Shown here one piece after another: positions 14,401 to 53,315 of a stretch of DNA of 64,000 nucleotides. The DNA comes from Neoarius graeffei (taxonomy: Eukaryota > Chordata > Actinopteri > Siluriformes > Ariidae), in the NCBI RefSeq assembly GCF_027579695.1, contig NC_083569.1, forward strand, positions 76,681,149 through 76,745,148, written 5' to 3'. Numbering within the stretch: the first letter of the stretch is position 1; the number at the start of each line of letters is the position of its first letter. The translations under genes were made by a program, and so were the position numbers. Under the pieces are notes generated by a model. That model was given only the letters and a program-made list of their open reading frames with translations, had not been told where the DNA came from and did not search any database.

Positions 14401-17400
14401 TTGTGACCTCGCGGACTATGACGCGCCTTGCTCTTGGAGAGGGATCTTTGTTGGTTTGCTACTTTTGAGGTGAGTAACAGTGATCTTGAATCTCCTCCAT
14501 CTCTCTGATGCTGGTTTGGTGGAGTCCAAACCCTTTAGAGATGAGGATCAATAGCTCTTTCTGAGGTCCTCAGGAATCTCCTGTGTTCATGAAATGATAC
14601 ACTTCCACAAACGCGTGTTGTGAAGATCAGACTTTGATAGATCCCTGTTCTTTAAATAAAACAGGGTGCCCACTCGCACCTGATTGTCATCCCATTGGTT
14701 GAAAACACCGGACTCTAATTTCACCTTCAAATTAACCACTCATCCTAGAGGTTCACATACTTTTGCCACTCACGGATATGTAATATTGAATCATTGCTCT
14801 CAATAAACAACCATGGGGTTTTTTGTTTGTTCTCCCCCCCCCCCCCATTTGTTTAATTTGGTTCTCTTGATCTGCTTTTCGGACTTGTGCTAAAATGTTT
14901 TTGTAGAAATATAGAACACCTCTGTAAAGGGTTTACAAACTTTCAAGCACCCTGATATTTTTGAGGTAAAAAAAAATATGCATTTGAAATAAGGATTGCA
15001 TGTTACAGTGTCAAGTGCCTCATAAGAATGTTGAAAGCTTTTGACTAAATGATTTTCGCCAAAAAGAGTTTGATAGCTCTAATACACAGGCAGGCTCACA
15101 AGACATGTATGTGGTGTTGGGTAATGATAATGGGGAAGAGAGGAGGAGGAGGGTAGAAGGAGATTGACTTAACTGTAATGTGGGTTTGTTTTTTTTGTTT
15201 TTTTTCTCCCTCTTTTTGAAACTTCTTGACTTAAATCTGGCAGCTGTTTAAGTGACAACATCCACAAAGACTTCAGGAAAGCAATCGGAGCCAACTGCGT
15301 CTTCTACAGCACTTCGACACATGAACTGATTGTACTGGTCAGTGCATTTCTTTTTCTGGTTCTCTCCATTATTCTTTCCTTGTAGTAATTTCTTTACCTG
15401 GGTGCACAGTAATGAAACTTGAAATACTCTTTCCACAGTCCACGAACGATTCCACAGTGAAGCGTGCCTCCCTTCTGAGTGACATGCACTTCCGCAGCAT
15501 TCGCACTAAGCTCATGCTCATGTCCCGCAATGAGGAGGCCACCAAACACCTGGAGGTGCATGTCCACGCATGCGTATTTATTCAAACATCAACGTTTTGT
15601 TCAAATTCTCAAGTTTTCCCCCGCAGGGTTTTTTATTATGATGCCTTTATTTATTCCCATGGAGTCGGTGACTAATTTGATTTCTTATCGATAGAGAGCA
15701 CAATTCAACTCCTGAAGGATGACATTTTTAGTTAAAGATGAGCTGTTGGAGCAGGGAAATAAGGCAGCAAATGTCAGTGCACAGAGAAACTAAATTTAGT
15801 AAATGCACTGCAGGGATCATAGCTTATGCTGTCTGATTAAACAAGAACATAAGCAGAAGCTAATGTCCATTCTTTTCCGCCACTGTGTGTGTGTGCTTCA
15901 GACGAGTAAACAGCTGGCATCAGCCTATCAGGAGGAGGTACGGGTACGTGAGGACCTGATGGGTTTGGCCATCGGCTCCCACGGCGCCAACATCCAGCAG
16001 GCCCGCAAGGTTCCTGGGGTTACCGCCATTGAACTTGAGGAGGAGAGCTGCACTTTCAGGATCTACGGAGAGGTGTGGGTTTTTGTTTTTTTGGGGTTTT
16101 TTTTGAGTAAATGGAACAGGCATTATGTTGGAAGTTTTTTTTTTTTTTTTTTTTTTAAGGGAACGCATGATACAGCACTTTTTAAACCAGTTGTTGCTCA
16201 GACTTTAATGTGGTATAACGTACAGTGCCTAAAGCTGTGCTGTAAACAGGGATTGATCAAACGATGCTGGTCCTCTCGCAATTTTTCAAGCCGGGGATAT
16301 TCAAGTTAAATGTTGTAATAAAATGAACATACCTAATGAAAATGTACGACTTAACTGCTAAACGCAGTTTTAGTGAAAACCAAGCAAGTGCTAATTCACC
16401 TCTTTTTGCTCCTTTTTCTCTGAAAGAATTGTCATGCTTGGAGAATTCTGAATACCCCAGAATAAGTATATTCTCAAGATGCGTTCTATAACTGAACATG
16501 CTGTCTCCCTTTCTCTCCTCGGCTCTCTTGCTGTGTCAGACCCCAGAAGCTGTAAAACAGGCTAGAGTATATCTGGAGTTTAAAGAAGACTCCTTCCAGG
16601 TACCCAGGAATCTTGTCGGTGAGTTTACTTTGTGAAATACAGAGGTCCTTTAGCTGAATTCATCTTGAATTGGAGAAAAGTTGGTCTTAAGAATAGGTTA
16701 GGAGTGATCTTATCAAGTGACTCGGTCACCAGAGACCGGTTCAATCGAGTTATTTTGCTGAGATTTTTAAGCTCATGTTCTCACTGGGTTGAGATGGTTC
16801 TTGACGGGTAGCTGTTGAGTCTTCCGTCTCTGGCTTTTCTCTCGTAGCCATAATTAGGGCATTCCAATGCTGGCTCGATAAAATCGTACCTGTAGTTAGT
16901 AGTGTAAAATATTGATGTATTTTAAATCTCTGTCTTTCCCTCACCATCCAGGCAAAGTTATTGGGAAAAGTGGCAAAATCATCCAAGAAATTGTCGACAA
17001 GTCCGGTGTGGTGCGTGTTCGGATCGAAGGGGACAACGATAAAAAGCTGCCCAGAGAGGAGGCAAGTCTGAAGACGCACCATCAATGCATCTCGCACCCT
17101 GCCTCAGTAATTCTGACAAACTTGCAGCCACAGCTACATTCTGTAGACCAGATGTTATGTTGGGTTTATTTATTATTTTATTTGTGTTTATGTATTGTAA
17201 CTTACTATGCAAGTCTTTTGTGTTCCACTCTTCAGGGTATGGTTCCCTTCATCTTTGTAGGAACCAAAGAAAACATCAGTAATGCCCAGGCTTTGCTGGA
17301 GTACCATGTGGCCTACCTGCAGGTGAGCCAACTGCTGAGGATGGCACGTGTGTGTGTGTGTTTTGACTTAATGCAGCTCAGTCATCACCTCGTTTGGTAC

Positions 17401-20400
17401 AAAGTACATTTGTTTTTTGTTTGTTTTGTTTTTAGTCTGACAAAACTGCTGCTTGAGCTTTTTCGCAGCGAGTTGCGCTCTACAGACTGCGCAAACCTGG
17501 TCATCTTGTCAATGAACGAGTTTGAATCTTGATTGGTTAGCTGCAACTATAATAAATGCTTATAGATTTTGTTCCAAGTGTGATAATGTTTTAATAGTAT
17601 TGTACACCCAGTCAGTAGGTTACAATTTCTTTATGGAATCATAAACGGGTATCTTAATTAAATGGTTGAACAATCCAGAATGAAATCGATGAATTGAACA
17701 GGTGATGCTGTTTTGAAAAACTGAGTAAGGGAAAATGTGAATTTTATTTATTTATTTTTAATGCTGTGGGTGGGTTTTCTCTCTCTCTCTCTATTGAATA
17801 TTTTTGTTTTCAGCATTTTTAAATATCTGCATGAAAATGTAGTCTGTGCTGGCAGCCACACAGTAAGCAAAGAAACTAATCAAATTAACGGCTCTTTTTT
17901 TCATCACCTCTGACTGCAAGCACATAAGCTTGCCGGTAGGCAAGGCACAGTTGAATTTGAATGCACTTTAACTGGAAAATGCTTCAAGTAAGGTTTGTGG
18001 CCGTTTTTTGTTTTTTAAATCCAAGTTCAACAGCCAGCTGAGAGATGACGGGTCAGTGTTCAAATTATGTAGACGTACAGTTTTGATTTTCTGCAGAAAC
18101 GCCAGGCGACCATGTTAAGCTCATGGCAATGCTGGAGATGGCGGCTCATTCTTGACTGGTCACCTGACGTACTCCCTCTTGGAAAGCTGCTGATCACACT
18201 TCTCTTTTAACCACCACCAGCTAAAGATAGCAATTAGGGCCGTGCCAAGGGGTGCACTTTAGGGGATGAGGGTATGCTGGTAGATGGATTACAAGCTCCA
18301 GGGCCCTGTTCGTCCCAGAATAGCCCCTCGCTGTACTACCCTTCAGCTGTTGTTCAACGGCACAGCTGTCACACAGTGCAGTGACATCCTTTCTCACACG
18401 TTTCCCTATACTATAACTGCTGTCTTTGTAGTTTATCTTTTACTTACAGTGGTGCTTGAAAGTTTGTGAACCCTTTAGAATTTTCTATATTTCTGCATAA
18501 ATATGATCTAAAACGTCATAACATTTTCACACAAGTCCTGAAAGTAGATAAAGAGAACCCAGTTAAAAAAATGAGACAAAAATATTATACTTGGTAATTT
18601 ATTGAGGAAAATGATCCAATATTACATATCTGTGAGTGGCAAAAGTATGTGAACCTTTGCTTTCAGTATCTAGTGTGACCCCCTTGTGCAGCAATAACTG
18701 CAACTAAATGTTTCCGGTAACTGTTGATCAGTCCTGCGCACCGGCTTGGAGGAATTTTAGCCCATTCCTCCGTACAGAACAGCTTCAACTCTGGGATGTT
18801 GGTGGGTTTCCTCACATGAACTGCTCGCTTCAGGTCCTTCCACAACATTTCGATTGGATTAAGGTCAGGACTTTGACTTGGCCATTCCAAAACATTAACT
18901 TTATTCTTCTTTAAGCATTCTTTGGTCGAACGACTTGTGTGCTTAGGGTCGTTGTCTTGCTGCATGACCCACCTTCTCTTGAGATTCAGTTCATGGACAG
19001 ATGTCCTGACATTTTCCTTTAGAATTCACTGGTATAATTCAGAATTCATTGTTCCATCAATGATGGCAAGCCGTCCTGGCCCAGGTGCAGCAAAACAGCC
19101 CCAAACCATCATACGACCACCACCATGTTTCACAGATGAGATAAGGTTCTTATGCTGGAATGCAGTGTTTTCCTTTCTCCAAACATAACGCTTCTCATTT
19201 AAACCAAAAAGTTCTATTTTGGTCTCATCCGTCCTCAAAACATTTTTCCAATAGCCTTCTGGCTTGTCCATGTGATCCTTAGCAAACTGAAGACAAGCAG
19301 CAATGTTCTTTTTGGAGAGCAGTGGCTTTCTCCTCACAACCCTGCTATGCACATCATTGTTGTTCAGTGTTCTCCTGATGGTGGACTCATGAACATTGGC
19401 TAATGTGAGAGAGGCCTTCAGTTGCTTAGAAGTTACCCGGGGGTCCTTTGTGACCTCGCCGACTATTACACGCCTTGCTCTTGGAGTGATCTTTGTTGGT
19501 CGACCACTCCTGGGCAGGGCTCTACACTTTCTTTTTTTTTTTCAGGAGCACACGTGCTCCTAAGTTAAAAATTTTAGGAGCACAGGGAAAAAAATGGGGG
19601 CACAAGTAGGTTTTCATTTTAAAGGTTTATTGCAGCGCAAACCTTAGACACACCAACACATAAAACGCAAAGTTCAATTGAGAATGAATGAATGAACAAA
19701 CAAATGAATAATGAATAACTGAATGAATGAACAAACAGTAGCTAAACAGAGAGCAGAGCTCAGCAGAGCTAACATCATCATCAAGGACAGCTCCCACCCT
19801 GGCTCTGAGTTCTTTGACTTGCTGCCCTCAGGCAGGCGTTACAGGTGCATCAAAGCAAGGACCAACAGACTCAGTTTTTTTCCCACAGGCCATAACCACC
19901 TTGAACAATTAGCCTTTTTCACATTACGTCACTTGCAGGGGAACTCGTATCCGTTTTCAGCCTTTTGAATGGAAGAAGAGGTATACGGCGGCAACATATG
20001 TTAACAAAACTGTCATTCACAGATAAGATTGATAATAATATTGCACATTGTTTATCATTACGTATTGTTAGCGACCATTCCAGTCACCTATCTGCCTTGT
20101 TTTGGAAAGGAAGTTTACTGACTTTCTATGGTTGCTACTTGTTCGCCAGCAGATTAGCATGCCGCCTCTTCTTCCATTCAAAAGGCTGAAAACGGATGTG
20201 AGGTTCTACTGCAAGTGACGTAATGTGAAAAAGGCTCGTTACATGCACTGACTGATGCCACTTCTGGCAGGTGCAACAATGCACCAACAAGGACCTAAAA
20301 GGACAATATTCTCACACTTACCTGATACAGTGCAATACTTATTACAGTGCAACCTCACAGAGCAACTTTTTAGTTTTTATAGCTTTTGTATATTTTATAT

Positions 20401-23400
20401 TTCTACACTTTTACATCCATACCCAATACAATGCAATACCAAATACAGTGCAATATCCTGAGTTTTGTAGCTGAACTGAGTTTCTATAACTAATGTGCAA
20501 TTAACATCTGCAACTCAACACGCCCAGCTGTGTATATATATATAATTTGTTTTTCTGCTGTGTTGTGACATGCACCATTTGTATATACTGTATATCATTT
20601 GTTTTTCTGCTGTGTTGTATATTCCCATCTAAATGTTTGCACTGGGGTGTGTGCTTTCCATCTCATTATATAATTTTCCCGCACCTTCTCCCGTCGTTCT
20701 AGCTTTCTTCACTACACTTTCTTCCTCGTCCGTTCTTTTATTCTTGTTTCCACCATCATTGCTTTTAAAAAACGCCGTTATTCTTTGCATAGCGAATATT
20801 TCTCAGCTCGGTCCGAACCAGCTCTGTTATCTCTCAGTTGAATGATCTGATGAATCCCTAAAAAGCACTTTTCCCACCTCATGCCACACCCACAACATAC
20901 AACCGTGGGAAAGAGGGGCAATCGCAGAAAGATGAGTAGAAAACGGGAAATGTTACGGGGATATTTGTGATAGTAGGCTATTGTAGCATCAGCACAAAAG
21001 CACCAGACTCAACTTGAACTTTAAAATGCTGAAATCTCATGTCCCGGTAAAACGCACTAGCATGGCAGAACGGCAAAAAAAAATTTAACTTTTTCACTCC
21101 ATCTCCCCCTGGCTACCGTGGGAACCACCGCAGTGCAAGACGGGGGCAATGCACGCAACTACAGACAGGGAGCAAGGCGCAGGCAGAACACACACAACAC
21201 TGAACACATACACAACAATACAGGCCGTTACTCATTACACTATATTAGGTAGGTTATCCAGCGCTGGATTTACATACTTTGCAGTTTAACGTTTGATACA
21301 TTTTAGAATGTTAAACTCGTCGCGTCTGTGCTCAGTGCTTTCCTAAATTGTCGGCCGCAAGAAGCCCTCGCACGAATGCGCGTTTTTTTTTTTTTTTTTT
21401 CTCTCGTCGTTCGCATGCCGAAAAATTTGCTCGCAAATGCGAGTGAAATGTGCGCACTGTAGAGCCCTGCTCCTGGGAAGGGTAACAATGGTCTTGAATT
21501 TCCTCCATTTGTACACAATCTGTCTGACTGTGGATTGGTGGAGTCCAAACTCTTTAGAGATGGTTTTGTAACCTTTTCCAGCCTGATGAGCATCAACAAC
21601 GCTTTTTCTGAGGGCCTCAGAAATCTCCTTTGTTCGTGCCATGATACACTTCCACAAACACGTGTTGTGAAGATCAGACTTTGATAGATCCCTGTTCTTT
21701 AAATAAAACAGGGTGCCCACTCACACCTGATTGTCATCCCATTGATTGAAAACACCTGACTCTAATTTCACCTTCAAATTAACTCCTAGAGGTTCACATA
21801 CTTTTGCCACTCACAGATATGTAATATTGGATCATTTTCCTCAATAAATAAATGACCAAGTATTATTTTGTCTCATTTGTTTAACTGGGTTCTCTTTATC
21901 TACCTTTAGGACTTGTGTGAAAATCTGATGATGTTTTAGGTCATATTTATGCAGAAATATAGAACATTCTAAAGGGTTCACAAACTTTCAAGCACCACTG
22001 TAAACATGCCATTCTGCATGTCGGTTATGTCTACTCCTACCTGTTTCAGGTTAAAGAGAATATCTCTTTGCTTGTTTAATTAACTAGCAAACACTATACA
22101 TATATAGGTACAGGTAATCTTACCAACTAAGCTTTTTGTGTATTTCAGGGACTTTAATATTACACTTAATCAAGCCCACTCAATTTTCTCATTGGTTAGG
22201 AGGTGGAACAGTTGCGTCTGGAGCGGCTGCAGATTGATGAGCAGCTCCGCCAGATCGGTGTTGGTTACCGTACAGCACCAAGCCGCACCAGTGTACCTGG
22301 AGCCAGTGATCGTGAAAGGGGATACCAGACCGACGAGAGCAGCAACTCTCTGCAGGCCTCCCGCACGTACGGCGGACGAGGCCGCGGGCGCAAATCCAAC
22401 AACGCGTACTCTGGTTATGGTGAGCCAGCTGTACACTACCTTCCACGATTGCTTTGTACAGCTTGAAATGTCAGTTTTTTAAAAAAAAAATCTGAATTTG
22501 CTTGGAAATTCATCACGTTTGTATGCATAATGGATATTTCCAGTGCAAATATCCTAAAATGGTGCATGTTGAACAGCACAATTGCACATTTTTAAAATAA
22601 ATTTTTTCCCCTCTTCCCCTGTATCATATTTTTGAAAATTCACAAAGCCCAATCAGGAGTTGGCTTACTTTGTCTACAAAAACCTGATTGTTCTGGTACC
22701 TGGATTGTATCCAGAAAAGATGTTCACATGCATTTAAAGATGTAACAGATTATTGTATAACTCGCACAACGCAAATCAGCTCAACGCTTAAGATAAGAAA
22801 CTGTGTCATGCAGCTTGTTCTATTCTGTGCCAAAGGTGGCGCAATGATTTTTTTTTTTAATCCATTATATACTGATGTAAATACAACGGGTGCATCATGT
22901 GTCTACAAACTCCTGATTTTGTGCCCTCTGATTTAAATCAGTTGGTGCATTTACCATCTGGCTAAATCATGGCCTTTGTAATTCCCTGAATACTGCATTT
23001 GGCCCAGTGTATGGTCAGCATGAAGCCAATTTCATAAAACCGGGGAAATTTAGTTCCCTCTGAAATTTGGTTATTGTGATGTGTTTATTTCTGTAATATC
23101 TTTAAAAAAAAAAAAAAACAGGCCATTCTGTGGCTGGGAAGTTATTTAATTTGAAGGGATTCCTGAGCAAATAATGTGCATGAAATCACTCGCTTCGCAC
23201 AGTCAAGCAGACAGAGGAAGTCAGTGCGCGCAGGTGCAGGTTTACCTTTCGGTTGCTTCTTTTGGGTTTTACAGCAGCTGGCATCCATAGTGTTTCATTA
23301 CTGCCGTCTACAGGTTTACCTTTAAGCGTGCGCTGACAGTTCCATCATTCTGTCACTAAACGAACAGCTGATCACACCAAGGTGCTCACTGACCACCGAT

Positions 23401-28320: not shown

Positions 28321-28497
28321 TTTCTGGAATAAGTGTTTTGTTTTACTGTTATTTATGTAAAGATCACTTAGATTATTTTTGCTCATTGAGATTTGAAATG
28401 GGACAAAATAGCCACTCAAATACAGCTCTGATTCTTAAAAAAAAAAAATCTCTATAGCTTTTTAACACTGGCTGTCCTGTTTGAATGGTTCCTTATA

Positions 28498-30208
28498 CAG
28501 TGGTGCTTGAAAGTTTGTGAACCCTTTAGAATTTTCTATATTTCTGCATAAATATGACCTAAAACAACGTCAGATTTTCACACAAGTCCTAAAAGTAGAT
28601 AAAGAGAACCCAGTTAAACAAATGAGACAAAAATATTATACTTGGTCATTTATTTATCGATGAAAATGATCCAATATTACATATCTGTGAGTGGCAAAAG
28701 TATGTGAACCTTTGCTTTCAGTATCTGGTGTGACCCCCTTGTGCAGCAATAACTGCAACTAAAGGTTTGCGGTAACTGTTGATCAGTCCTGCACACCGGC
28801 TTGGAGGAATTTTAGCCCATTCCTCCGTACAGAACAGCTTCAACTCTGGGATGTTGTTGGGTTTCCTCACATGAACTGCTCGCTTCAGGTCCTTCCACAA
28901 CATTTCGATTGGATTAAGGTCAGGACTTTGACTTGGTCATTCCAAAATATTAACTTTATTCTTCTTTAACCATTCTTTGGTAGAACGACTTGTGTGCTTA
29001 GGGTCGTCTTGCTGCCTGTCCCACCTTCTCTTGAGATTCAGTTCATGGACAGATGTCCTGACATTTTCCTTTAGAATTTGCTGGTATAATTCAGAATTCA
29101 TTGATCCATCAATGATGGCAAGCCGTCCTGGCCCAGATGCAGCAAAACGGGCCCAAACCATGATACTACCACCACCACGTTTCACAGATGGGATAAGGTT
29201 CTTATGCTGGAATGCAGTGTTTTCCTTTCTCCAAACATAACGCTTCTCATCTCATTATCTCTAGCCGCTTTATCCTGTTCTACAGGGTCGCAGGCAAGCT
29301 GGAGCCTATCCTAGCTGACCACGGGCGAGAGGCGGGGTACACCCTGGACAAGTCGCCAGGTCATCACAGGGCTGACACATAGACACAGACAACCATTCAC
29401 ACTCACATTCACACCTACGGTCAATTTAGAGTCACCAGTTAACCTAACCTGCATGTCTTTGGACTGTGGGGGAAACTGGAGCACCCGGAGGAAACCCACG
29501 CGGACACGGGGAGAACACGCAAACTCCACACAGAAGGCCCTCAGCGGCCACGGGGCTCGAACCCGGACCTTCTTGCTGTGAGGTGACAGTGCTAACCACT
29601 ACACCACTGTGCTGCCCATAACGCTTCTCATTTAAACCAAAAAGTTCTATTTTGGTCTCATCCATCCACAAAACATTTTTCCAATAGCCTTCTGGCTTGT
29701 TCGTGTGATCTTTAGCTAACTGCAGATGAGCAGCAATGTTCCTTTTGGAGAGCAGTGGCTTTCTCCTTGCAACATTGCCATGCACACCATTGTTCAGTGT
29801 TCTCCTGATGGTGGACTCATGAACATTAGCCGAATATGAGAGAGGCCTTCAGTTGCTTAGAAGTTACCCTGGGGTCCTTTGTGACCTTGCCGATTATTAC
29901 ACGCCTTGCTCTTGGAGTGATCTTTGTTGGTCAACCACTCCTGGGGAGGGTAACAGTGGTCTTGAATTTCCTCCATTTGTACACAATCTGTCTGACTGAG
30001 GTTCACATACTTTTGCCACTCACAGATATGTAATACTGGATCATTTTCCTCAATAAATAAATGACCAAGTATAATATTTTTGTCTCATTTGTTTAACTGG
30101 GTTCTCTTTATCTACTTTTCAGACTTGTGTGAAAATCTGATGACGTTTTAGGTCATTTATGCAGAAATATAAAATTCTAAAGGGTTCACAAACTTTCAAG
30201 CACCACTG
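28498..30208 (-). mobile_element. Tc1 family A, copy A3, split by a SINE and internally deleted
   Basis: TA-flanked (28496-28497, 30209-30210) with intact family A ends. Minus-strand transposase pieces include [20 protein letters not shown] and [17 protein letters not shown] and, beyond a SINE (29251-29617), SKRNIAAHLQLAKDH. Near 29997 the N-terminal coding start is missing: CTGTCTGACTG joins directly to AGGTTCACATAC, an internal deletion. Confidence 0.93.
29251..29617 (-). mobile_element. tRNA-headed SINE (tail type 1) inside Tc1 A3
   Basis: Perfect 14-bp duplication ATAACGCTTCTCAT (29237-29250, 29618-29631) of Tc1 coding sequence. The tRNA-like head is at the right end. It interrupts the transposase between EKRY and the upstream catalytic region. 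Confidence 0.94.
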
Positions 30209-31371
30209 TATATTTGCTTCAAAATCTCATTTTATTTCAGGACAGTTGACTGCACCGTAGATCACTCATTAAATTATGCAAAATTTAACAGTCATCCTGC
30301 AAACCACACTTGAAATTTATAAGGGTTTAAGATCAATACTGTAGATAGGCAATGGGTGCCGCTTGGAGCAATTGTGCGATTGGGATTTAGTTTTTGCCTC
30401 ATTATGAAATGAAAAGGCAAGAACAGGGTTATGGGCACTCCTGACAGAATTTGCTTACTTGTATCGACTGGCGATGAGGATGATTGATTGATTTTTTTTT
30501 TAAAGTAATTTCAGTTCTGTAGAGATTGTCTGTCTGTTCTGCTAAACATGTTGAAACATCTACAACATGCCAAGCTAAACTGAAAGAGTAGGAATCCTTG
30601 GATCATTTGAATGCCCCTAGTTTACCTGCTCTTTTGTTTTTGCCTGACTTCTCTGTGAACTCATTTTAGAGAAATTTTCATTTGTCTACTCTCCTCTACT
30701 GGTCGGATAAGGAATCTCCCTTTTTTTAAATTATTTATTTGACTTTCAGGCCTGCTACAGATTTTTGATTCCCCCAACAGAACGCTAGATGTCCACAGTC
30801 AGCATGGAGGTGCCAGCAATTCAAAGTTCCCAGCTGCAGTTTGGTCTTAGGGGAGTAAAAGTTACTGATCACACTGGTGTTCAGTCATGACTCCCCTCTA
30901 ATGGAAACCATCTCAGTGGTTTTTAAAGTGGGCTTGCCAGGAAAATCAGTCTATAACCTAATTTATGGTTTATTTAATAAAAGGCTGAATTTCTGAAATC
31001 AAGCAACTTAAATTTTACTTTTGTGCTTACAAAGGAAATGGTTCATTTGCTTTTTTTTGGCAAAAAATAAATGATGACTTCACCTCTATAAACCCTTCTT
31101 TAAGAGTTGAAAAGTTTGCGTATATGAGGCAAAGGTTATTGGTCTTATCTGAGATGGCGAGGAGTTTGCATACAGGCAGGAAGTTTTATGGTTGGAGCAC
31201 TGTATACTCTATATAAATTCAAGACCTGAATAAAAGTCTGGTTCAGCTCTGCAACCAGTAGTGAGGTGAAGAGAATGCAATGTAGCGGAGAAGCTCATAG
31301 AGAGAGCTAGGAAACAAGCAAAATAAATAAGGAAAGATAATTATTGACTTCTTACACCCAGGCTTTAGTCC
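30209..31371 (+). other. intergenic, nothing recognised
   Basis: AT-rich sequence between Tc1 A3 and the first SINE of the duplication locus. A TATA-like string CTATATAAATTC near 31207 is isolated and not followed by a recognisable exon. Confidence 0.5.
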
Positions 31372-31726
31372 TTCCATTATCTGTAGCCGCTTATCCTGTG
31401 CAGGGTCGCGGTCAAGCTGGAGCCTATCCCAGCTGACTACGGGCGAAAGGCGGGGTACACCCTGGACAAGTCGCCAGGTCATCACAGGGCTGACACATAG
31501 ACACAGACAACCATTCACACTCACATTCACACCTACGGTCAATTTAGAGTCACCAGTTAACCTAACCTGCATGTCTTTGGACTGTGGGGGAAACCGGAGC
31601 ACCCAGAGGAAACCCACATGGACAACATGCAAACTCTACACAGAAAGGCCCTCGCCGGCCACAGGGCTCGAACCCGGACCTTCTTGCTGTGAGGCGACAG
31701 CGCTAACCACTACACCACCATACCGC
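31372..31726 (-). mobile_element. SINE 1 (tail type 1), left partner of the duplication
   Basis: Flanked by near-identical CAGGCTTTAGTCC on the left and CAGCTTTAGTCC on the right. Head on the right with B box complement GGGCTCGAACCC. Diagnostic bases: CCCTGGACAAG, ACAGGGCTGAC, a shortened CCACATGGACAACATGC, and a right end CACCATACCGCCCC. Confidence 0.9.
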
Positions 31727-32252
31727 CCCAGCTTTAGTCCTGTGTGTATTAAACTTTCAGACTTATGGACACACAACTTCTGCATAAACATAATGACTGT
31801 CGCTGACAGCCAGGGTGCGATTTGTCAAAAAAACAGAAGGGGGGATGATTTTTTTTCTTTTTTTAATTCAAATGAATATTAGATTTTTTAACTTGCCTAA
31901 ATTGGGCCACAATATTACTTAGGGTTGTATCTGCAGCAACGTTTTACTTTTAATTTTCACCATATTGACTGCGATGCTATACGAAAAAAAAAATGCAAAA
32001 AGTAGGCAGGCCCTTTTTCAGGTCCGTGTTTTAATCTATCCCAACGTGGCAAAACATTTTCATCTGAACTTCAATCAAACACTCAAAAATTATTTCCTCA
32101 ACAGGCTAGCACAACGTGATGTCAACACTCAGGAACAGGTTTGACAAACTAGACTAAGTAAACAGTCTGCTCTGGTGACGAATTTGTGGTGGCTTTTTCG
32201 GTTTTCCTGTCGAGGCATTGTCTGCAGCATTTTGGCCCTCTTTTACCCACAT

Positions 32253-33771
32253 TTATGCAAATTTGTGCGCAGGAAAGGAGGCAACCCCTGGACCGTTAAC
32301 ACCAATGAACAGTAGGCTATTCAACGTGGAGACGTGCGTTCTGTTTCTTTCGTCCGTAAGGATGTGGTTCATCGCACTAAACCCACGCTCGCACTCAGCA
32401 GTTGACACAGGGAGCGTGGAGACCGTGGTGAGCACTTTTTTCAAAGTCTCCCGAGTTACATTTCAATTCGTGAAATTCTTTGAGGAGTGTGGGCATATTT
32501 GTGCCTGCCATAGCAAGGGTTTTATGAATTGTCAGAAGTTTGTCGTCCCCATATAGCATCCGTTCATCTTCATCGGAGGGCCAGTTTGACGGATTCAGCG
32601 CTGCCACAGCAGAAAAAATTCCCTTGTCATCGAGCCTGCTCTGAATGTTGTCTGCCAAGGAGATGAAAAAACGCTCACGAAAGGTCTCTGCCTTTTGTCG
32701 TTCTCCATCACTTGGCTGAGACACATTAACCCCCTTGAATGTTTGCATACTGCCCAATTCCTCCTTCAGACATCTTATATTCACTCCATCGACCTTCCTC
32801 ATAGACCTCAATGTCCGCACGGCAACGTCCACCTCAGTATTGGCAGTGACAGCTATGGCATCTCTTCTCTGAAGAAAGAGGGACAAGGCCTGAAGAGTTT
32901 CGAGTGCGTCTTTCACTAATGCCATCTCCACCACAAAAAGCCACTGTATCACCTTAGAATGAATTTCCTGACGTTTGGCCCTATCTTTGGAGGATCGTGA
33001 TTTGTCTTCGGCCAGTGCTGCAAAGAGTTTGACCAGGGCTTGGTAGCTTTCCCAAAGGGCCGTCACAGATGTGCACGATGAGGATAGCCAGCGCACGGCA
33101 AATACCTGTCCTATCCTGCGAGCTTGCATCTCCAAATTGGAGGCGGCAAGCTCTAGGTCTCGCATATTCTTTGGACTTTGAGAGAAAAAGGTGTACAGGG
33201 AGTCAGTGAACGTCTGAAAATGACTTGCATCTGTTATTTGTTTTACAGTGTCATGAACAGTTCAAGTTTGTGACTCATGCAGTGAATGACGATCAGGTTA
33301 GGGTTAATCTCCTCACGTAGGAGTGTGGCGACCCCTCTGTATCGGCCCAACATAGCGCCGGCCCCATCTGTCGCAAAACCAATTAGTCTGGAGCGCAACA
33401 TGTCTTTTGAGATGCCCTGCTTCTCAAGGCACTGTAGCAGACTGTTACATATCGCTGATCCAGTGCACGACTGTAATTCAGCAGGTTGAAAGAAAAAATT
33501 GCAACACTCCCTTTCAAAGGGAATTCTGATGTAAGTGATCAGACATGTTTTATTTGAAATGGTTGTGCTCTCATCAATGAGAATGCTGAACTTGGGTGAG
33601 TTTTTAATAAAGTCCACTAGAAGCACTGACATTTTCTCTGCAATAAACACCAGCATATTCCGGCATGCCTTGTCAGAATGCAGCGTGTTGCCAAGGTTAA
33701 CACCGTTGAGTTGTTGTAGTTCGACCAGGTGTGGCTGCATTTTGAACGAGAGGTCAGTGTAGCAGATCATG
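32253..33771 (-). pseudogene. hAT transposase 3' half, unit A copy
   Basis: In minus-strand order: LVELQQLNGVNLGNTLHS, then FSILIDESTTISNKTCLITY (first Asp), FATDGAGAMLGRYRG (second Asp) and CMSHKLELF. A frameshift near 33250 leads to KQITDASHFQTFTDSLYTFF in another frame, then MRDLELAASNLEMQARRIGQ. A one-base gain in an A6 run near 32436 precedes KKVLTTVSTLPVSTAECERG with the catalytic Glu and dimerisation motif. It resembles ZMYM/KIAA1586-like hAT proteins. Confidence 0.9.
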
Positions 33772-33798
33772 CACTGCAAAAAATGGCCTTTCAAAAAT
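33772..33798 (+). mobile_element. Orphan 27-bp left end of the CACTG-ended element (unit A)
   Basis: CACTGCAAAAAATGGCCTTT then CAAAAAT, identical to 36196-36222. The rest of the element is absent because the duplication breakpoint is in the adjoining SINE. Confidence 0.92.
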
Positions 33799-34151
33799 CT
33801 CTAGCCGCTTTATCCTGTTCTACAGGGTCGCAGGCAAGCTGGAGCCTATCCCAGCTGACTACGGGTGAAAGGCGGGGTACACCCTGAACAAGTCGCCAGG
33901 TCATCACATGGCTGACACATAGACACAGACAACCATTCACACTCACATTCACATCTACGGTCAATTTAGAGTCACCAGTTAACCTAACCTGCATGTCTTT
34001 GGACTGTGGGGGAAACCGGAGCACCCGGAGGAAACCCACGCGGACACGGGGAGAACATGCAAACTCCACACAGAAAGGCCCTCGCCGGCCACGGGGCTCG
34101 AACCCGGACCTTCTTGCTGTGAGGCGACAGCGCTAACCACCATACTGCCCC
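33799..34151 (-). mobile_element. Chimeric SINE at the duplication junction
   Basis: The left part has SINE 3 diagnostics (CCCTGAACAAG, CACATGGCTGAC, CACATCTACGG) and the SINE 3 left flank CCTTTCAAAAAT. The right end has the SINE 1 pattern CAGCGCTAACCACCATACTGCCCC and the SINE 1 right flank AGCTTTAGTCC. It therefore lacks matching target duplications of its own, as expected for a recombination product. Confidence 0.92.
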
Positions 34152-34676
34152 AGCTTTAGTCCTGTGTGTATTAAACTTTCAGACTTATGGACATACAACT
34201 TCTACATAAACATAATGACTGTCGCTGACAGCCAGGGTGCGATTTGTCAAAAAAACAGAAGGGGGGATGATTTTTTTTTCTTTTTTTATTTCAAATGAAT
34301 ATTAGATTTTTTAACTTGCCTAAATTGGGCCACAATATTACTTAGGGTTGTATCTGCAGCAACGTTTTACTTTTAATTTTCACCATATTGACTGCGATGC
34401 TATACGGAAAAAAAAAATGCAAAAAGTAGGCAGGCCCTTTTTCAGGTCCGTGTTTTAATCTATCCCAACGTGGCAAAACATTTTCATCTGAACTTCAATC
34501 AAACACTCAAAAATTATTTCCTCAATAGGCTAGCACAACGTGATGTCAACACTCAGGAACAGGTTTGACAAACTAGACTAAGCAAACAGTCTGCTCTGGT
34601 GACGAATTTGTGGTGGCTTTTTCGGTTTTCCTGTCGAGGCATTGTCTGCAGCATTTTGGCCCTCTTTTACCCACAT

Positions 34677-36195
34677 TTATGCAAATTTGTGCGCAGGAAA
34701 GGAGGCAACCCCTGGACCGTTAACACCAATGAACAGTAGGCTATTCAACGTGGAGACGTGCGTTCTGTTTCTTTCGTCCGTAAGGATGTGGTTCATCGCA
34801 CTAAACCCACGCTCGCACTCAGCAGTTGACACAGGGAGCGTGGAGACCGTGGTGAGCACTTTTTTCAAAGTCTCCTGAGTTACATTTCAATTCGTGAAAT
34901 TCTTTGAGGAGTGTGGGCATATTTGTGCCTGCTATAGCAAGGGTTTTATGAATTGTCAGAAGTTTGTCGTCCCCATATAGCATCCGTTCATCTTCATCGG
35001 AGGGCCAGTTTGACGGGTTCAGCGCTGCCGCTGCAGAAAAAATTCCCTCGTCATTGAGCCTGCTCTGAATGTTGTCTGCCAAGGAGATGAAAAAACGCTC
35101 ACGAAAGGTCTCTGCCTTTTGTCGTTCTCCGTCACTTAGCTGAGACACATTAACCCCCTTGAATGTTTGCATACTGCCCAATTCCTCCTTCAGACATCTT
35201 ATATTCACTCCATCGACCTTCCTCATAGACCTCACTGTCCGTACGGCAACATCCACCTCAGTATTGGCAGTGACAGCTATGGCATCTCTTCTCTGAAGAA
35301 AGAGGGACAAGGCCTGAAGAGTTTCGAGTGCGTCTTTCACTAATGCCATCTCCACCACAAAAAGCCACTGTATCACCTTAGAATGAATTTCCTGACGTTT
35401 GGCCCTATCTTTGGAGGATCGTGATTTGTCTTCGGCCAGTGCTGCAAAGAGTTTGACCAGGGCTTGGTAGCTTTCCCAAAGGGCCGTCACAGATGTGCAC
35501 GATGAGGATAGCCAGCGCACGTCAAATACCCGTCCTATCCTGCGAGCTTGCATCTCCAAATTGGAGGCGGCAAGCTCTAGGTCTCGCATATTCTTTGGAC
35601 TTTGAGAGAAAAAGGTGTACAGGGAGTCAGTGAACGTCTGAAAATGACTTGCATCTGTTATTTGTTTTACAGTGTCATGAACAGTTCAAGTTTGTGACTC
35701 ATGCAGTGAATGACGATCAGGTTAGGGTTAATCTCCTCACGTAGGAGTGTGGCGACCCCTCTGTATCGGCCCAACATAGCGCCGGCCCCATCTGTCGCAA
35801 AACCAATTAGTCTGGAGCGCAACATGTCTTTTGAGATGCCCTGCTTCTCAAGGCACTGTAGCAGACTGTTACATATCGCTGATCCAGTGCACGACTGTAA
35901 TTCAGCAGGTTGAAAGAAAAAATTGCAACACTCCCTTTCAAAGGGAATTCTGATGTAAGTGATCAGACATGTTTTATTTGAAATGGTTGTGCTCTCATCA
36001 ATGAGAATGCTGAACTTGGGTGAGTTTTTAATAAAGTCCACTAGAAGCACTGACATTTTCTCTGCAATAAACACCAGCATATTCCGGCATGCCTTGTCAG
36101 AATGCAGCGTGTTGCCAAGGTTAACACCGTTGAGTTGTTGTAGTTCGACCAGGTGTGGCTGCATTTTGAACGAGAGGTCAGTGTAGCAGATCATG
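34677..36195 (-). pseudogene. hAT transposase 3' half, unit B copy
   Basis: Same order and the same two frameshifts as unit A, so both mutations predate the duplication. Differences from A include RVFDVRW for QVFAVRW, TVRSM for TLRSM, SQLSDG for SQPSDG and LNDEGIFSAAAAL for LDDKGIFSAVAAL. Neither copy shows evidence of purifying selection that I can judge by eye. Confidence 0.9.
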
Positions 36196-36222
36196 CACTG
36201 CAAAAAATGGCCTTTCAAAAAT

Positions 36223-36580
36223 CTCTAGCCGCTTTATCCTGTTCTACAGGGTCGCAGGCAAGCTGGAGCCTATCCCAGCTGACTACGGGTGAAAGGCGGG
36301 GTACACCCTGAACAAGTCGCCAGGTCATCACATGGCTGACACATAGACACAGACAACCATTCACACTCACATTCACATCTACGGTCAATTTAGAGTCACC
36401 AGTTAACCTAACCTGCATGTCTTTGGACTGTGGGGGAACCGGAGCACCCGGAGGAAACCCACGCGGACACGGGGAGAACATGCAAACTCCACACAGAAAG
36501 GCCCTCGCTGGCCACGGGGCTCGAACCCGGACCTTCTTGCTGTGAGGCGACAGTGCTAACCACTACACCACTGTGCCGCC
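36223..36580 (-). mobile_element. SINE 3 (tail type 1), right partner of the duplication
   Basis: Perfect 12-bp duplication CCTTTCAAAAAT (36211-36222, 36581-36592). Same orientation as SINE 1, as required for unequal recombination between them. Carries CCCTGAACAAG and CACATGGCTG, shared with the chimeric SINE. Confidence 0.94.
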
Positions 36581-37487
36581 CCTTTCAAAAATAAGAAATA
36601 AAAGATTAAAACAAAGCATATTTGCTTGAATCAGGTGAAAAAAATCTGCCAATGGAACTAGTCAAATTTGACTTGGGAAGATTTCTTAAAGTAAGATGAA
36701 AAATCTAACCTGTTTTTAGATGAAATAATTCCAAAATAAGATTGGGGAACTTATTATGTGAGATCTGATTAACTCAAAATAATCAAAATAGTTATTATAA
36801 CAAGATCGTACCTCTTACATTTAGCCATTCAAGTCATTTTTATTTATTTCATTTTAAGGGTATTTCACTTAAATTCATGACAAAGTCTTAGCAGTAAAAA
36901 CTGAATTTAAGATAAATATACTAATATTAGGATTGTTAAATTCTACAACTAAGCATTGCTAGCTTAAAAGATTCTCCTTTTGTGACCTGTAATTAGTAAA
37001 ATACTCTAGATATGAGACCAGAGACTATCTTGAATCAAGTTGACGACACGTGTAGCATTGCGACAAGTTTATTTTTTTCCCATTTCAACATTCAAACATT
37101 AAAACATCTCTTAAGAATCCACTTCCCCAGGAACTCAGGCACCAAAAAAAAAAGTCTATGCATTTTGACTTACAGTGCTTACACAACGCCAAAGCAACAG
37201 TGCATTTTGGGGGCACTGACTATTCATGTGTACGAGGGGTTTACAAGATCAGGCACAAAAAAAACCCAAACAAAAAAAAAAAACACTGAACTTAACTCAC
37301 AGCATTCCAAAAAGACCTCACTAAAACGCCCTCCACTCACTCATAGCCTTTTTGAAGGCACTTGTCTGGTCTAGAGTATATGTCTTGAAATGTATGAATT
37401 GTAATGAAAGATTCAAAGATTTCAGTAAAGTTCATTAATTCCCAAAACAAGCATACTTTGGTTTTTTTTCTTGAAACAAGATGAACC

Positions 37488-38737: not shown

Positions 38738-39527
38738 GTTCCTATGCTAAAATGTTAGTGTTTATATTGTGTCCGGTGACGTTCAGAAACATTAAGTGTA
38801 GATGCGCCATCTGTCAGTAGCCTACTCTGATGTATGGGCTGCATGTTTGAAGATCGTTAGATTTTAAGTAGCATCAGTTAAGTTGCATTCATCGCTATCA
38901 AGGGGGGATAGTCCGTGTCCCCACCGGAGATAAAAATAATTTAGCAGAGGTAGGGATAGGAAAACCAGAAGGAGAGAAATCCCTCCCATCCCCCCCTACA
39001 AATCGCACCCTGCTGACAGCATTGTTTTGTGCTCAAGATGCAATGTTTATCTGTGGAGCATCATCTGCTTTGCAATGTTCTTTTTCTATCCATGGCGTAA
39101 TAGTTATGTATAGTTAATACTTAAGTATCAAGTTGTCTTCATATGGACTCTTTTATAGAACGCATGAAAAAAATGACAGCCTCTTAAAAAAAACTTTTTG
39201 CAACTCTGGAAAGTTTCTTTTCTAAATCTTTGACTGGTAGACAGAATCCTATATCATAAAAATATGGGCATTTCTATCTATGTTTTTAAGCATATAAAAT
39301 ATGACGTCAAAAATGGGCCTTGAAAACGAGGCTAGAATTGATTTTGATGCACTGGTCATAAAGTTTACAATCATTGTTAACACCACGAAAGGGTTTCAAG
39401 TGGAACTGGTACATCATGTGAAAGATCATATGACTAGCAATGATCTAAAACTGAAATGTAATCTGTATATACTGGGTATTTTCTTCTATAGAATTGAAAT
39501 TTATTTACTCTTTTTGAGAGTAATGAC

Positions 39528-39890
39528 GGGCGGCACGGTGGTGTAGTGGTTAGCGCTGTCGCCTCACAGCAAGAAGGTCCGGGTTCGAGCCCCATGGCCG
39601 GCGAGGGCCTTTCTGTGCGGAGTTTGCATGTTCTCCCCGTGTCCACGTGGGTTTCCTCCGGGTGCTTCGGTTTCCTCCACAGTCCAAAGACATGCAGGTT
39701 AGGTTAACTGGTGACTCTAAATTGAGCGTGGGTGTGAATGGTTGTCTGTGTCTATGTGTCAGCCCTGTGATGACCTGGTGACTTGTCCAGGGTGTACCCC
39801 GCCTTTCGCCCGTAGTCAGCTGGGATAGGCTCCAGCTTGCCTGCGACCCTGTAGAACAGGATAAAGCAGCTAGAGATAATGAGATGAGAT
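39528..39890 (+). mobile_element. tRNA-headed SINE (tail type 1)
   Basis: Perfect 12-bp duplication GAGAGTAATGAC (39516-39527, 39891-39902). Sits exactly between the two copies of the direct repeat. Lacks one TGTGAATG repeat present in other copies. Confidence 0.93.
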
Positions 39891-39973
39891 GAGAGTAATG
39901 ACCTTTCCTAGCATTCAGAAGTTAAGGCTATGTTTTTAAGCATATAAAATATGAGATCAAAATCAGACAAGAA

Positions 39974-40346
39974 AGAAAGCACAACTTTATTCATCACACA
40001 CTTGTGAAATTTCCTCTCTGCATTTAACCCATCTGAAGCAGTGAGCACACGCATGCACGCACACACACATACCCAGAGCAGTGGGCAACCATGCTAACAG
40101 CACCCAGGGTGCAGTTGGGAGTTAGGTGCCTCGCACAAGTGCACCTCAGCCCAAGGCCGTCCCATATTAACCTAACCGCATGTCTTTGGACTGTGGGGCA
40201 AACCGGAGCACCCGGAGGAAACCCACGCAGACACGGGGAGAACATGCAAACTCCGCACAGAAAGGCCTCCACCGGCCACTGGGCTCCAACCCAGAACCTT
40301 CTTGCTGTGAAGCGACCGTGCTAACCACTACACCACCGTGCTGCCC
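39974..40346 (-). mobile_element. tRNA-headed SINE with tail type 2
   Basis: The right side has the shared head (complement of TAGTGGTTAGCACGGT and the AACCCAGAACC B box). The left side instead has CATTTAACCCATCTGAAGCA, CCCAGAGCAGTGGGC and GAAATTTCCTCTCTG. The same tail occurs at 47020-47305 and 62228-62655. So one SINE head is joined to two unrelated tails. Confidence 0.85.
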
Positions 40347-40590
40347 AAATGAGGGTAAAAGATTTTTTATGGCTTTGCTCTTCACAGGGACACCTAGAAT
40401 TGACTTTGATGCACTGGTCATAACGTTTACAACCATTGTTAACACCACAAAAGGGTTTCAGATGGAATTGGTACATCATGTGAAAGACTATGTGACCTAG
40501 CAATGATCTAAAACTGGAATGTAATCCGTATATACTGGGTATTTCTTCTATAGAGTTGTAATTTATTTACGCTTTTTGAAAGTAATGACC

Positions 40591-41202
40591 ATTCCTAACA
40601 TTAAAAAGTTGATTATTGGTAGAACTAGTGCATCACGTAACACATCTAGTTATAGACTATTGAAATATCAGTTCTTATTTATTTTTACACAGATAACACT
40701 GATCTGATTCTGTTTACCCACGCCACCTTTAACTCCTCCATTTTATGTTACATTGGTGCATATGTTGGTTGTAGATTTGTTGCAGCTACAAAGTCTAGTG
40801 CACACGAGTTTTTGACTTGCAACATTTGCATCACTGTGTTGTACAATCAGTCTTGTAATTGCAGAAGGTCATTAAGGCATGCCTTGGGAATTGGATCTAT
40901 TGCCATTAGATATCAGCACCAGGCAGTCGTCTTTGATTATCCATCCCGACTCTTCTGCTTTGGGTAAGACTGGCCTTGCAAAGCAAGCTTGATGCCATGT
41001 CATAGCTCATTATGTGCTCTCATTACATGATGCTTCAAAGCATTGCTGGTAGGTGGAAGTTTGTCTGAGGATGTGGCTTTAGCAATTAAGATAAAGTGAG
41101 CCATATCAGTTGACTCTACTTCTGCATTCTCAGAAAATAAAGTTCATTATTGTGCCTTTATGGGTGCATTGGCTTGTCACTGGGGCAGTACTCTCGAAGG
41201 TA
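40591..41202 (+). other. intergenic, nothing recognised
   Basis: No ends, motifs or coding remnants seen between the SINE cluster and the next hAT. Confidence 0.5.
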
Positions 41203-46689: not shown

Positions 46690-47375
46690 GGGTGGCACAG
46701 TGGTGTAGTGGTTAGCACTGTTGCCTCACAGCAAGAAGGTCCTGGGTTCGAGCCCCGTGGCCGGCGAGGGCCTTTCTGTGTGGAGTTTGCATGTTCTCCC
46801 TGTGTCTGCATGGGTTTCCTCCGGGTGCTCTGGTTTCCCCCACAGTCCAAAGACATGCAGGTTAGGCTAAATGATGGCTCTAAATTGACCGTAGGTGAGT
46901 GTGGATGGTTGTTTGTCTCTCTGTGGCAGCTCTGTAATGATCTGGCGACTTGTCCAGGGTGTACCCCGCCTTTTGCCCGTAGTCAGCTAGGATAGGCTCC
47001 AGCTTGCCTGCAACCCTGTAGTCACATGCACACTTCAAGCACAGTGAAATTCATCCTCTGCATTTAACCCATCTGAAGCAGTAAACACACGCACACCCAG
47101 AGCAGTGGGCAGCCACACCAGAGCGCCCAGGTACCTTGCTCAAGGCCACCCCACATCATGTGGGGGAAACCGGAGCACCTGAAGGACACCCACAGGGAAA
47201 ATATGCAAACTCCACACAGAAAGGGCCTCGCCGGCCGCTGGACTTGAACCCGGAACCTTCTTGCTGTGAGGCAACCGTGCTAACCACTACACCACTGTGC
47301 TGCCTGGAAAATAAAGAAAGATAAAGAGAAAAATAAAGCGGCTAGAGATAATGAGATGAGATGAGAATATATTTT
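46688..47375 (+). mobile_element. SINE (tail type 1) interrupted by a SINE with tail type 2
   Basis: The plus SINE runs from GGGTGGCACAGTGGTGTAGT to CCTGCAACCCTGTA (about 47023) and resumes as AAATAAAGCGGCTAGAGATA (about 47333) with its GAGATGAGATGAG tail. Between them lies a minus-strand type 2 SINE (about 47024-47305) with CATTTAACCCATCTGAAGCA and the head complement at its right. Confidence 0.85.
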
Positions 47376-47396
47376 TTCACTGTGACTATCCAAGAG

Positions 47397-47755
47397 GGCG
47401 GCACGGTGGTGTAGTGGTTAGCGCTGTCGCCTCACAGCAAGAAGGTTCGGGTTTGAACCCCGTGGCCGGCGAGGGCCTTTCTGTGTGGAGTTTGCATGTT
47501 CTCCCCGTGTCCGCGTGGGTTTCCTCCGGGTGCTCCGGTTTCCCCCACAGTCCAAAGACATGCAGGTTAGGTTAACTGGTGACTCTAAATTGACCGTGAG
47601 TGTGAATGGTTGTCTGTGTCTATGTGTCAGCCCTGTGATGACCTGGCGACTTGTCCAGGGTGTACCCCGCCTTTCGCCCGTAGTCAGCTGGGATAGGCTC
47701 CAGCTTGCCTGCGACCCTGTAGAACAGGATAAAGTGGCTACAGATAATGAGATGT
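47397..47755 (+). mobile_element. tRNA-headed SINE (tail type 1)
   Basis: Head GGCGGCACGGTGGTGTAGTG, B box GGGTTTGAACC (mutated from GGTTCGAGCC), tail GATAATGAGATG grading into a (TG)n run at 47754-47776. Confidence 0.9.
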
Positions 47756-50044: not shown

Positions 50045-50607
50045 AAGGTTCCCCAGAGGAAGCTTAAAGGTTCTGTCTGGACTCCTACAACAGTGTGTTT
50101 TCCTGTCAGAGAAAGGTACCCAGGAGAACTCTTTCTGAAGCCCGAAAGAACCTTGTACTTTTCCATGCACCAGGGTCACCAGGGTGCGACCCTCAGGAGT
50201 AAACCTTTGGTACCTTTACTGTGTGTATTCCATGGTCATGTGAATACAGTGTGTATTTAAAAATGATTTCAGGTACATAATTGGACCAAAAGGACTACTC
50301 CTGTACCTTGAATTAGCATTCTGAGTCATACATTAAAGGTACAGGACACAACATTTTCAAGGAAACACACACGGCTAAAGCTACAAAAGATGTACCCTTG
50401 AGGGTCGCACCCCAGCAACAAGGAAAGCTAAGCATCTACTGTATTGTTTTTAAGAGATTATTAACTGGGTAAATGTGTGGTACAGGGTCTAAATTATTGC
50501 TAATTATTTATATTCTTACATAGAACCAGTCAGGTATTTAAACTGTAACTACTCCTGGTATTCTCTTTGAAAAATGAATTTGTTATGAGTGGGTAATTAA
50601 TGGTTCT
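50045..50607 (+). other. intergenic, nothing recognised
   Basis: Short unique-looking segment before Tc1 A4. Confidence 0.5.
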
Positions 50608-50915
50608 TACAGTGGTGCTTGAAAGTTTGTGAACCCTTTAGAATTTTCTATATTTCTGCATAAATATGACCTGAAACATCATCAGAGTTTCACACAAGTC
50701 CTAAAAGTAGATAAAGAGAACCCAGTTAAACAAATGAGACAAAAATATTATACTTGGTCATTTATTTATTGAGGAAAATGATCCAATATTACATATCTGT
50801 GAGTGTCAAAAGTATGTGAACCTCTAGGATTAGCAGTTAATTTAAAGGTGAAATTAGAGTCAGGTGTTTTCAATCAATGGGATGACAATCAGGTGTGAGT
50901 GGGCACCCTGTTTTA

Positions 50916-51994: not shown

Positions 51995-52069
51995 GGCACC
52001 CTGTTTTATTTAAAGAACAGGGATCTATCAAAGTCTGATCTTCACAACATATGTTTGTGGAAGTGTATC

Positions 52070-53093
52070 ATGGCACAAACAAAGGAGATTTCTGAGGACC
52101 TCAGAAAAAGCGTTGTTGATGCTCATCAGGCTGGAAAAGGTTACAAAACCATCTCGAAAGAGTTTGGACTCCACCAATCCACAGTCAGACAGATTGTGTA
52201 CAAATGGAGGAAATTCAAGACCATTGTTACCCTCCCTAGGAGTGGTCGACCAACAAAGATCACTCCAAGAGCAAGGCGTGTAATAGCCGGCGAGGTCACA
52301 AAGGACCTCAGGATAACTTCTAAGCAACTGAAGGCCTCTCTCACATTGGCTAATGTTAATGTTCATGAGTCCACCATCAGGAGAACACTGAACAACAATG
52401 GTGTGCATGGCAGGGTTGCAAGGAGAAAGCCAATGCTCTCCAAAAAGAATATTGCTGCTCGTCCGCAGTTTGCTAAAGATCACGTGAACAATTCAGAAGG
52501 CTATTGGAAAAATGTTTTTTGGACAGATGAGACCAAAATAGAACTTTTTTGGTTTAAATGAGAAGCGTTATGTTTGGAGAAAGGAAAACACTACATTCCA
52601 GCATAAGAACCTTATCCCATCTGTGAAACATGGTGGTGGTAGTATCATGGTTTGGGCCTGTTTTGCTGCATCTGGGCCAGGACGGCTTGCCATCATTGAT
52701 GGATCAATGAATTCTGAATTATACCAGCAAATTCTAAAGGAAAATGTCAGGACATCTGTCCATGAACTGAATCTCAAGAGAAGGTGGGTCAGGCAGCAAG
52801 ACAACGACCCGAAGCACACAAGTCGTTCTACCAAAGAATGCTTAAAGAAGAATAAAGTGAATGTTTTGGAATGGCCAAGTCAAAGTCCTGACCTTAATCC
52901 AATCGAAATGTTGTGGAAGGACCTGAAGCGAGCAGTTCATGTGAGGAAACCCACCAACATCCCGGAGTTGAAGCTGTTCTGTACGGAGGAATGGGCTAAA
53001 ATTCCTCCAAGCCGGTGTGCAGGACTGATCAACAGTTACCGCAAATGTTTAGTTGCAGTTATTGCTGTACAAGGGAGTCACACCAGATATTGA
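52070..53093 (+). pseudogene. Tc1 family A transposase, single frameshift
   Basis: From [20 protein letters not shown] (ATG near 52070) through the paired helix-turn-helix, [13 protein letters not shown] linker and [10 protein letters not shown], where an extra T in a run at 52545-52550 shifts frame. It continues in the next frame with [59 protein letters not shown] and ends GSHTRY-TGA. About 340 codons. All three DD34E residues are present. One base separates it from a full frame. Confidence 0.93.
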
Positions 53094-53315
53094 AAGCAAA
53101 GGTTCACATACTTTTGCCACTCACAGATATGTAATATTGGATCATTTTCCTCAATAAATAAATGACCAAGTATAATATTTTTGCCTCATTTGTTTAACTG
53201 GGTTCTCTTTATCTACTTTTAGGACTTGTGTGAAAATCTGATGATGTTTTAGGTCATATTTATGCAGAAATATTGAAAATTCTAAAGGGTTCACAAACTT
53301 TCAAGCACCACTGTA

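Follow-up and report, generated by a model that had tools for sequence, protein, structure and literature searches.

A tandem duplication between short interspersed elements inside a hAT transposon of Neoarius graeffei, with a chimeric element at the junction

The closest described counterparts of the locus reported here are the human rearrangements mediated by transposable elements (TEs), in particular those between two Alu copies. Human TE-mediated rearrangements (TEMR) range in size from 93 to 25,425 bp, the class that resembles homologous recombination (HR-like) has a median junction homology of 17 bp, and classical non-allelic homologous recombination (NAHR) requires more than 100 bp of identity (PMC9675761). 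Among deletions, the only events treated in PMC4356517, recombination declines with divergence up to 10% and end joining dominates from 15%; 88% of the Alu/Alu events at 10% divergence or less have a single crossover region and are likely products of in-register microhomology joining. Here we present the analysis of a 64-kb stretch of the Neoarius graeffei genome (NC_083569.1; "the window"), in which about 2.42 kb of a dead hAT transposon was duplicated in tandem by way of short interspersed elements (SINEs), with a hybrid SINE at the seam. Coordinates are positions within the window, and the data come from one genome assembly of 2.34 Gb.

As in human Alu/Alu TEMR (PMC9675761, PMC4356517), the SINEs lie in direct orientation, one chimeric SINE marks the junction and the homology at the switch is short; the size of about 2.42 kb lies within the reported range, and TEs at duplication junctions are reported there as well. 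Given this size and the 5.7% divergence between the two parental SINEs, the locus falls within the known TEMR range of size, homology and divergence. It differs in belonging to another SINE family and in its chimera, in which the full element has not been rebuilt in register: 8 bp are absent at the switch, and members of the HR-like class have to restore a full element. The duplication is an ordinary kind of rearrangement, nothing new in kind, and a clean, well-resolved example of it. Among the papers listed in literature searches on fish V-SINE/Mermaid, SINE-mediated tandem duplication and NAHR, none describes such a case in its title or the opening lines of its abstract, a result that speaks for those searches alone. 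The duplicated locus consists of the following parts.

31373-31729, minus strand: left SINE, head at its right end, delimited by matching flanks and SINE alignment
31730-34151: unit 1, made up of sequence flanking the hAT, the left end of the hAT, the C-terminal part of its transposase, the nested-element stub and the chimeric SINE
33799-34151, minus strand: middle, chimeric SINE, with the right-SINE body joined to the left-SINE end
34094-34141: switch interval of 48 bp, in which 8 bp between ACCAC repeats are deleted; the remaining ACCAC is at 34136-34140
34152-36580: unit 2, delimited by the unit alignment
36223-36580, minus strand: right SINE, delimited by matching flanks and by an empty site in two copies of the nested element (L022 and L023)

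The two units lie head to tail, 2.42 kb each, and are bounded by three SINEs of the same orientation; both breakpoints fall inside same-orientation copies of one TE family, as in TE-mediated tandem duplication. This arrangement had been proposed in a first-pass annotation of the DNA, and it is confirmed by alignment of the window with itself (31379-34140 against 33797-36563; 97.9% identity over 2776 alignment columns, with 35 mismatches and 7 gap openings) and, for the outer breakpoints, by the SINE alignment. A 23-mer from the junction occurs a single time in the genome, and the one-unit state is found in all 11 other hAT loci fetched, a sample of the family, within the stretch fetched.

The left SINE is flanked by AGGCTTTAGTCCT (31360-31372) and AGCTTTAGTCCT (31730-31741), which match as target-site copies, and the right SINE by CCTTTCAAAAAT on both sides (36211-36222 and 36581-36592). 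The junction TE is a chimera with swapped flanks: to its left the middle SINE has the flank found left of the right SINE, and to its right the one found right of the left SINE. Compared with each other, these two flanks reach a local score of 4, against 12 and 11 when the borrowed partners are used instead (for random pairs drawn from the region the 99th percentile is 8 and the maximum 18). Within the body, up to 34093, the middle SINE agrees with the right SINE at every position that distinguishes left from right, with two exceptions where the right SINE alone has changed: a single-base gap within an A run (column 266) and a C-to-T change at a CpG (column 339). The right SINE has one further private change at a CpG (column 385), which falls within the switch interval. 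From about 34141 onward the middle SINE has left-SINE bases, and it has a private change of its own at 34146. Of 332 ungapped columns, 19 (5.7%) distinguish left from right SINE, in addition to gaps of 4 and 8 bp; their longest present exact match is 60 bp, and in the switch region exact matches of 37 and 17 bp occur. Base-by-base alignment of the three SINEs and the two units thus bears out the earlier description of the middle SINE as right-like in its left flank and bases and left-like in its right end and flank. That description had the switch right and made no mention of the 8-bp deletion that lies in it.

Neither parent SINE has the deletion, which falls within the switch interval, between two ACCAC repeats. 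Twelve SINE heads are recognisable in the window, and the chimera is the one that carries it; across the window and 14 fetched loci (15 sequences, 165,627 bases) one deleted head stands against 21 full ones. Genome-wide, at least 119,088 full heads with consensus surroundings and 157 deleted heads were counted, the latter being 0.13% of 119,245; these counts are of exact patterns, and the chimera, having CCATAC, falls in neither.

Forty deletion-bearing and 40 full-length SINEs, the first ones listed rather than a random sample, were fetched, and their flanks were scored where the SINE core was found, which left 34 and 36 elements (6 and 4 dropped). At a score of 10 or more, a cut-off set after the scores were known, flanks matched in 24 of the 34 deletion-bearing SINEs and in 31 of the 36 controls (Fisher P 0.15); with the 95% null of each set the figures are 25/34 (above 7) and 31/36 (above 9). 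The left and right SINE, like the 31 matching controls, have the target-site duplication of a SINE-type insertion. From these flank counts, the deletion elsewhere in the genome is mostly a rare change in ordinary insertions, and its use as a general mark of recombinant SINEs is not supported.

The hAT transposon that carries the duplication has the following features.

31803-31810, plus strand: target-site copy CTGACAGC beside the outer left end
31811-31825, plus strand: outer left terminal repeat CAGGGTGCGATTTGT, matching the reverse complement of the right end at 15 of 15 positions
32256-32462, minus strand: Dimer_Tnp_hAT domain of unit 1 (PF05699, E 8.3e-08)
34225-34232, plus strand: second target-site copy CTGACAGC, beside the inner left end
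34233-34247, plus strand: inner left terminal repeat
34680-34886, minus strand: Dimer_Tnp_hAT domain of unit 2 (PF05699, E 8.1e-08)
38998-39012, minus strand: right terminal repeat
39013-39020, plus strand: target-site copy CTGACAGC at the right end

Perfect 15-bp terminal repeats, an 8-bp target-site duplication and a C-terminal dimerisation domain are shared with hAT transposons, from whose typical form the window copy departs in having two left ends, one right end and a broken transposase. CTGACAGC adjoins all three ends (31803, 34225, 39013), in keeping with the first reading that the left end and its target site had been copied along to give three copies at the locus; a fourth occurrence at 38432 is internal and unrelated. 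Of eight pieces scanned against Pfam, two matched (PF05699, one per unit), and the other six gave no family at E 0.01. A search of the Protein Data Bank (PDB) with two transposase pieces returned nothing for one and four weak matches (E 0.42-0.47) for the other, and in viral contigs neither a relative of the hAT piece nor a copy of a SINE 31-mer was found.

The transposase is not intact, being interrupted by the nested insertion and by two frame lesions near 32.45 and 33.26 kb. Both lesions are present in both units and in none of ten hAT copies fetched from eight other contigs (L010-L019); the first also occurs in an eleventh copy on the same contig (L009), which does not include the position of the second. 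Both lesions predate the duplication, as had been claimed. The open frames have the same length in both units; in the three pieces compared no stop has been gained, and the codon differences (6 synonymous, 9 nonsynonymous) are too few to test selection. No sign of function was found, and the frame is broken in both units. Two left ends and one right end would permit two alternative element lengths if a transposase acted in trans.

L009 lies in inverted orientation some 36 kb past the right end of the window hAT. It has its own 8-bp target site, ATTAGGAC, and is therefore a separate insertion of the same damaged lineage. At L009:3750-5568 it is an internally deleted hAT that has one frame lesion and several derived bases in common with the window copy, which suggests that a damaged copy may have been moved in trans. 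The first half of unit 1 has at least 58 matches in the genome (40 of 1079 candidates scored).

A second DNA element is nested in the hAT.

33772-33798: left-end stub of the nested element (CACTGCAAAAA...), cut off by the chimeric SINE; the element is continuous in L023
36196-38129: nested DNA element with CACTGCAAAAA ends, inside the hAT and itself containing two SINEs

In L010, L011 and L013 the hAT continues across the position of the nested element and provides its empty site; L012 has a few extra bases at that point. The target of the nested element is probably TA, which occurs on both sides in L022 and L023; CA is found at the one readable end of L021 and TG on the left side in the window. 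The family is young and numerous: at least 40 places at 92-100%, the window included, were found (40 of 1380 candidates scored), and family copies are 92-98% identical. L022 and L023 also continue across the position of the right SINE. From these empty sites the order of events is hAT, nested element, right SINE and, the left SINE having inserted independently, the duplication.

Compared over the 2070 bp that run from the left SINE to the middle SINE, the units show 19 substitutions (9.2 per kb), so that the earlier estimate of a few sites per kb was not quite right. Outside the 8-bp deletion and the positions that tell left from right SINE, gaps between the units are limited to single bases within or next to homopolymer runs. 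Divergence is 4.2-5.7% among L010-L019, 4.6-6.2% between these and the units, and 0.97% between the units. The duplication is young relative to the hAT family, and in that sense the event is recent, as first stated; since the differences are clustered, mean divergence is a weaker argument for this. With derived bases assigned by the majority of the other hAT copies, unit 1 has 10, unit 2 has 8 and 1 is ambiguous, in a realigned count that drops two flank sites outside the hAT and adds two homopolymer sites earlier scored as gaps; the minority base is at some sites found among the other copies too, for example in 4 of 10 at 32707.

32452-32827: substitution cluster, 12 of the 19 differences between unit 1 and unit 2 in 376 bp

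The scan probability of this cluster is 0.00055, with the tract length picked after looking. In 32470-32855 no derived change is common to the units, against 46 elsewhere in 31811-33770 (P 0.0019), and the tract is not simply conserved, each of L010-L019 showing 5-12 deviations there. Outside the tract the count falls to 7 substitutions over 1694 bp (4.1 per kb). The clustering, together with the absence of common derived sites, suggests that 32471-32827 of one unit, about 0.36 kb, may have been replaced by gene conversion from a related hAT copy.

Taken as a whole, the course of events that we consider probable starts from a single-copy locus with the left SINE in the flank, the hAT with its 8-bp target sites, the nested element inside it and the right SINE within the nested element. 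The right-SINE body was then joined to the left-SINE end, duplicating the intervening 2.42 kb or so. The nesting, the chimera with its exchanged flanks and the switch interval at 34094-34141 are seen directly in the sequence. At the join, right-SINE sequence through the first ACCAC would have met left-SINE sequence after the second, with loss of the 8 bp, one step out of register, as by microhomology-driven template switching or end joining between similar repeats. The conversion of about 0.36 kb in one unit may have followed later. The deletion occurs in the sole recombinant SINE and within its 48-bp switch interval, which suggests that the joining event itself made it; this location and the rarity of the deletion among SINE heads make an out-of-register join by the 5-bp ACCAC microhomology likelier than in-register unequal crossing-over. 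The product had earlier been described as the one expected from unequal recombination, which holds for a chimeric, SINE-mediated event, except that an in-register crossover would not itself remove 8 bp.

Several observations weigh against this account. Later slippage could have produced the deletion, which lies at a short direct repeat and has arisen in other SINEs too. No donor for the conversion was found: the best outside match of both units is L009 (98% to unit 2, 97% to unit 1), which has four derived bases in common with unit 2 and none with unit 1. Two of those four (32159 and 32452) are left unexplained by a single replacement and require repeated mutation or a second event, 32452 lying to the left of changes common to both units. 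A stretch free of substitutions, 33108-34085 (P 0.0003 with all sites), is still mildly unusual once the cluster is removed (P 0.028).

Direct recent conversion of unit 2 by L009 is not supported, since seven differences remain in 32471-32827 despite the 98% match, and 33108-34085 was set aside as proof of recent conversion there, being a weak sign after removal of the cluster.

The alternative that fares best, although we think it rather improbable, is a classical in-register unequal crossover between the SINEs, after which the chimera lost the 8 bp independently by slippage. Chimera and duplication would look identical either way, and slippage is favoured by the position of the lost stretch between direct repeats and by the 157 other deleted heads, most of the scorable ones (24 of 34) with matching flanks. 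It is harder to reconcile with a deletion that is present in merely 0.13% of heads and yet sits in the switch interval, and the other indels between the units, left/right SINE differences aside, are of a different kind, single bases at homopolymer runs. Classical NAHR is also disfavoured by the perfect identity of left and right SINE, which is at most 60 bp, against the more than 100 bp given in PMC9675761.

An assembly error, in which two haplotypes of one unit were strung together through their SINEs, is unlikely. A divergence of 0.4-1% could be allelic, and false duplications are a known assembly problem (PMC9516828). The locus, however, lies on a long sequence of 131 Mb (contigs or scaffolds), and a misjoin, which would have to rely on an overlap of 17-60 bp, would create neither an 8-bp deletion absent from both parents nor the private change at 34146. 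That the middle SINE inserted independently and the duplication arose otherwise is scarcely credible, for, dense as SINEs are here with 12 heads in 64 kb, its flanks mismatch each other and match the outer SINEs crosswise, and it has left-SINE bases at one end and right-SINE bases over the rest.

The SINEs we take to be V-SINE/Mermaid-like, from a putative central segment, a putative tRNA-like head and box A/B-like motifs. No tRNA was called by ARAGORN anywhere in the window or, at E 0.1, by Rfam within 28000-48500. V-SINE-type SINEs are known from fish (PMC3747384, in a table, and PMC2996927); like the V-SINE superfamily and the fish elements Mermaid and DANA treated there, the SINEs of this genome are very abundant. 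As a check case in the same window, the ordinary SINE at 39528-39890 has its target site GAGAGTAATGAC doubled, and a diverged nearby copy of its surroundings continues without the SINE.

This SINE lies within an older tandem duplication next to the hAT, at 39278-40610, in which 39332-39527 resembles 40394-40589 at about 91% and 39890-39923 resembles 40577-40610; the left copy is interrupted by the SINE and the right copy shows its empty site. At 46690-47754 three SINE copies lie within about 1 kb, two of them inverted relative to the third. A dispersed repeat family is also present in the window; its copies, the longest about 1.3 kb, occur in either orientation and are about 70-98% alike.

13431-14960, 18439-19519, 21470-22003 and 28484-30215: dispersed repeat copies
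50599-50915, 51995-53315, 56059-56530 and 57555-58598: further dispersed repeat copies

A more far-reaching idea, to which we give little credence, is that the ACCAC...ACCAC of the SINE head could be a preferred out-of-register joining point and some of the 157 deleted heads scars of rearrangement; the chief candidates would then be the 10 of 34 scorable deleted heads with flanks that do not match. If it were true, a head short of 8 bp would be a cheap genome-wide marker of SINE-SINE rearrangements. The locus offers a case dissected with outgroups and an order of events, in a genome where the SINE head pattern recurs in at least 119,088 exact copies. Its clustered differences show that mean divergence between duplicates can mislead about age, and a test of register at the chimera can help to separate microhomology joining from plain unequal crossing-over.

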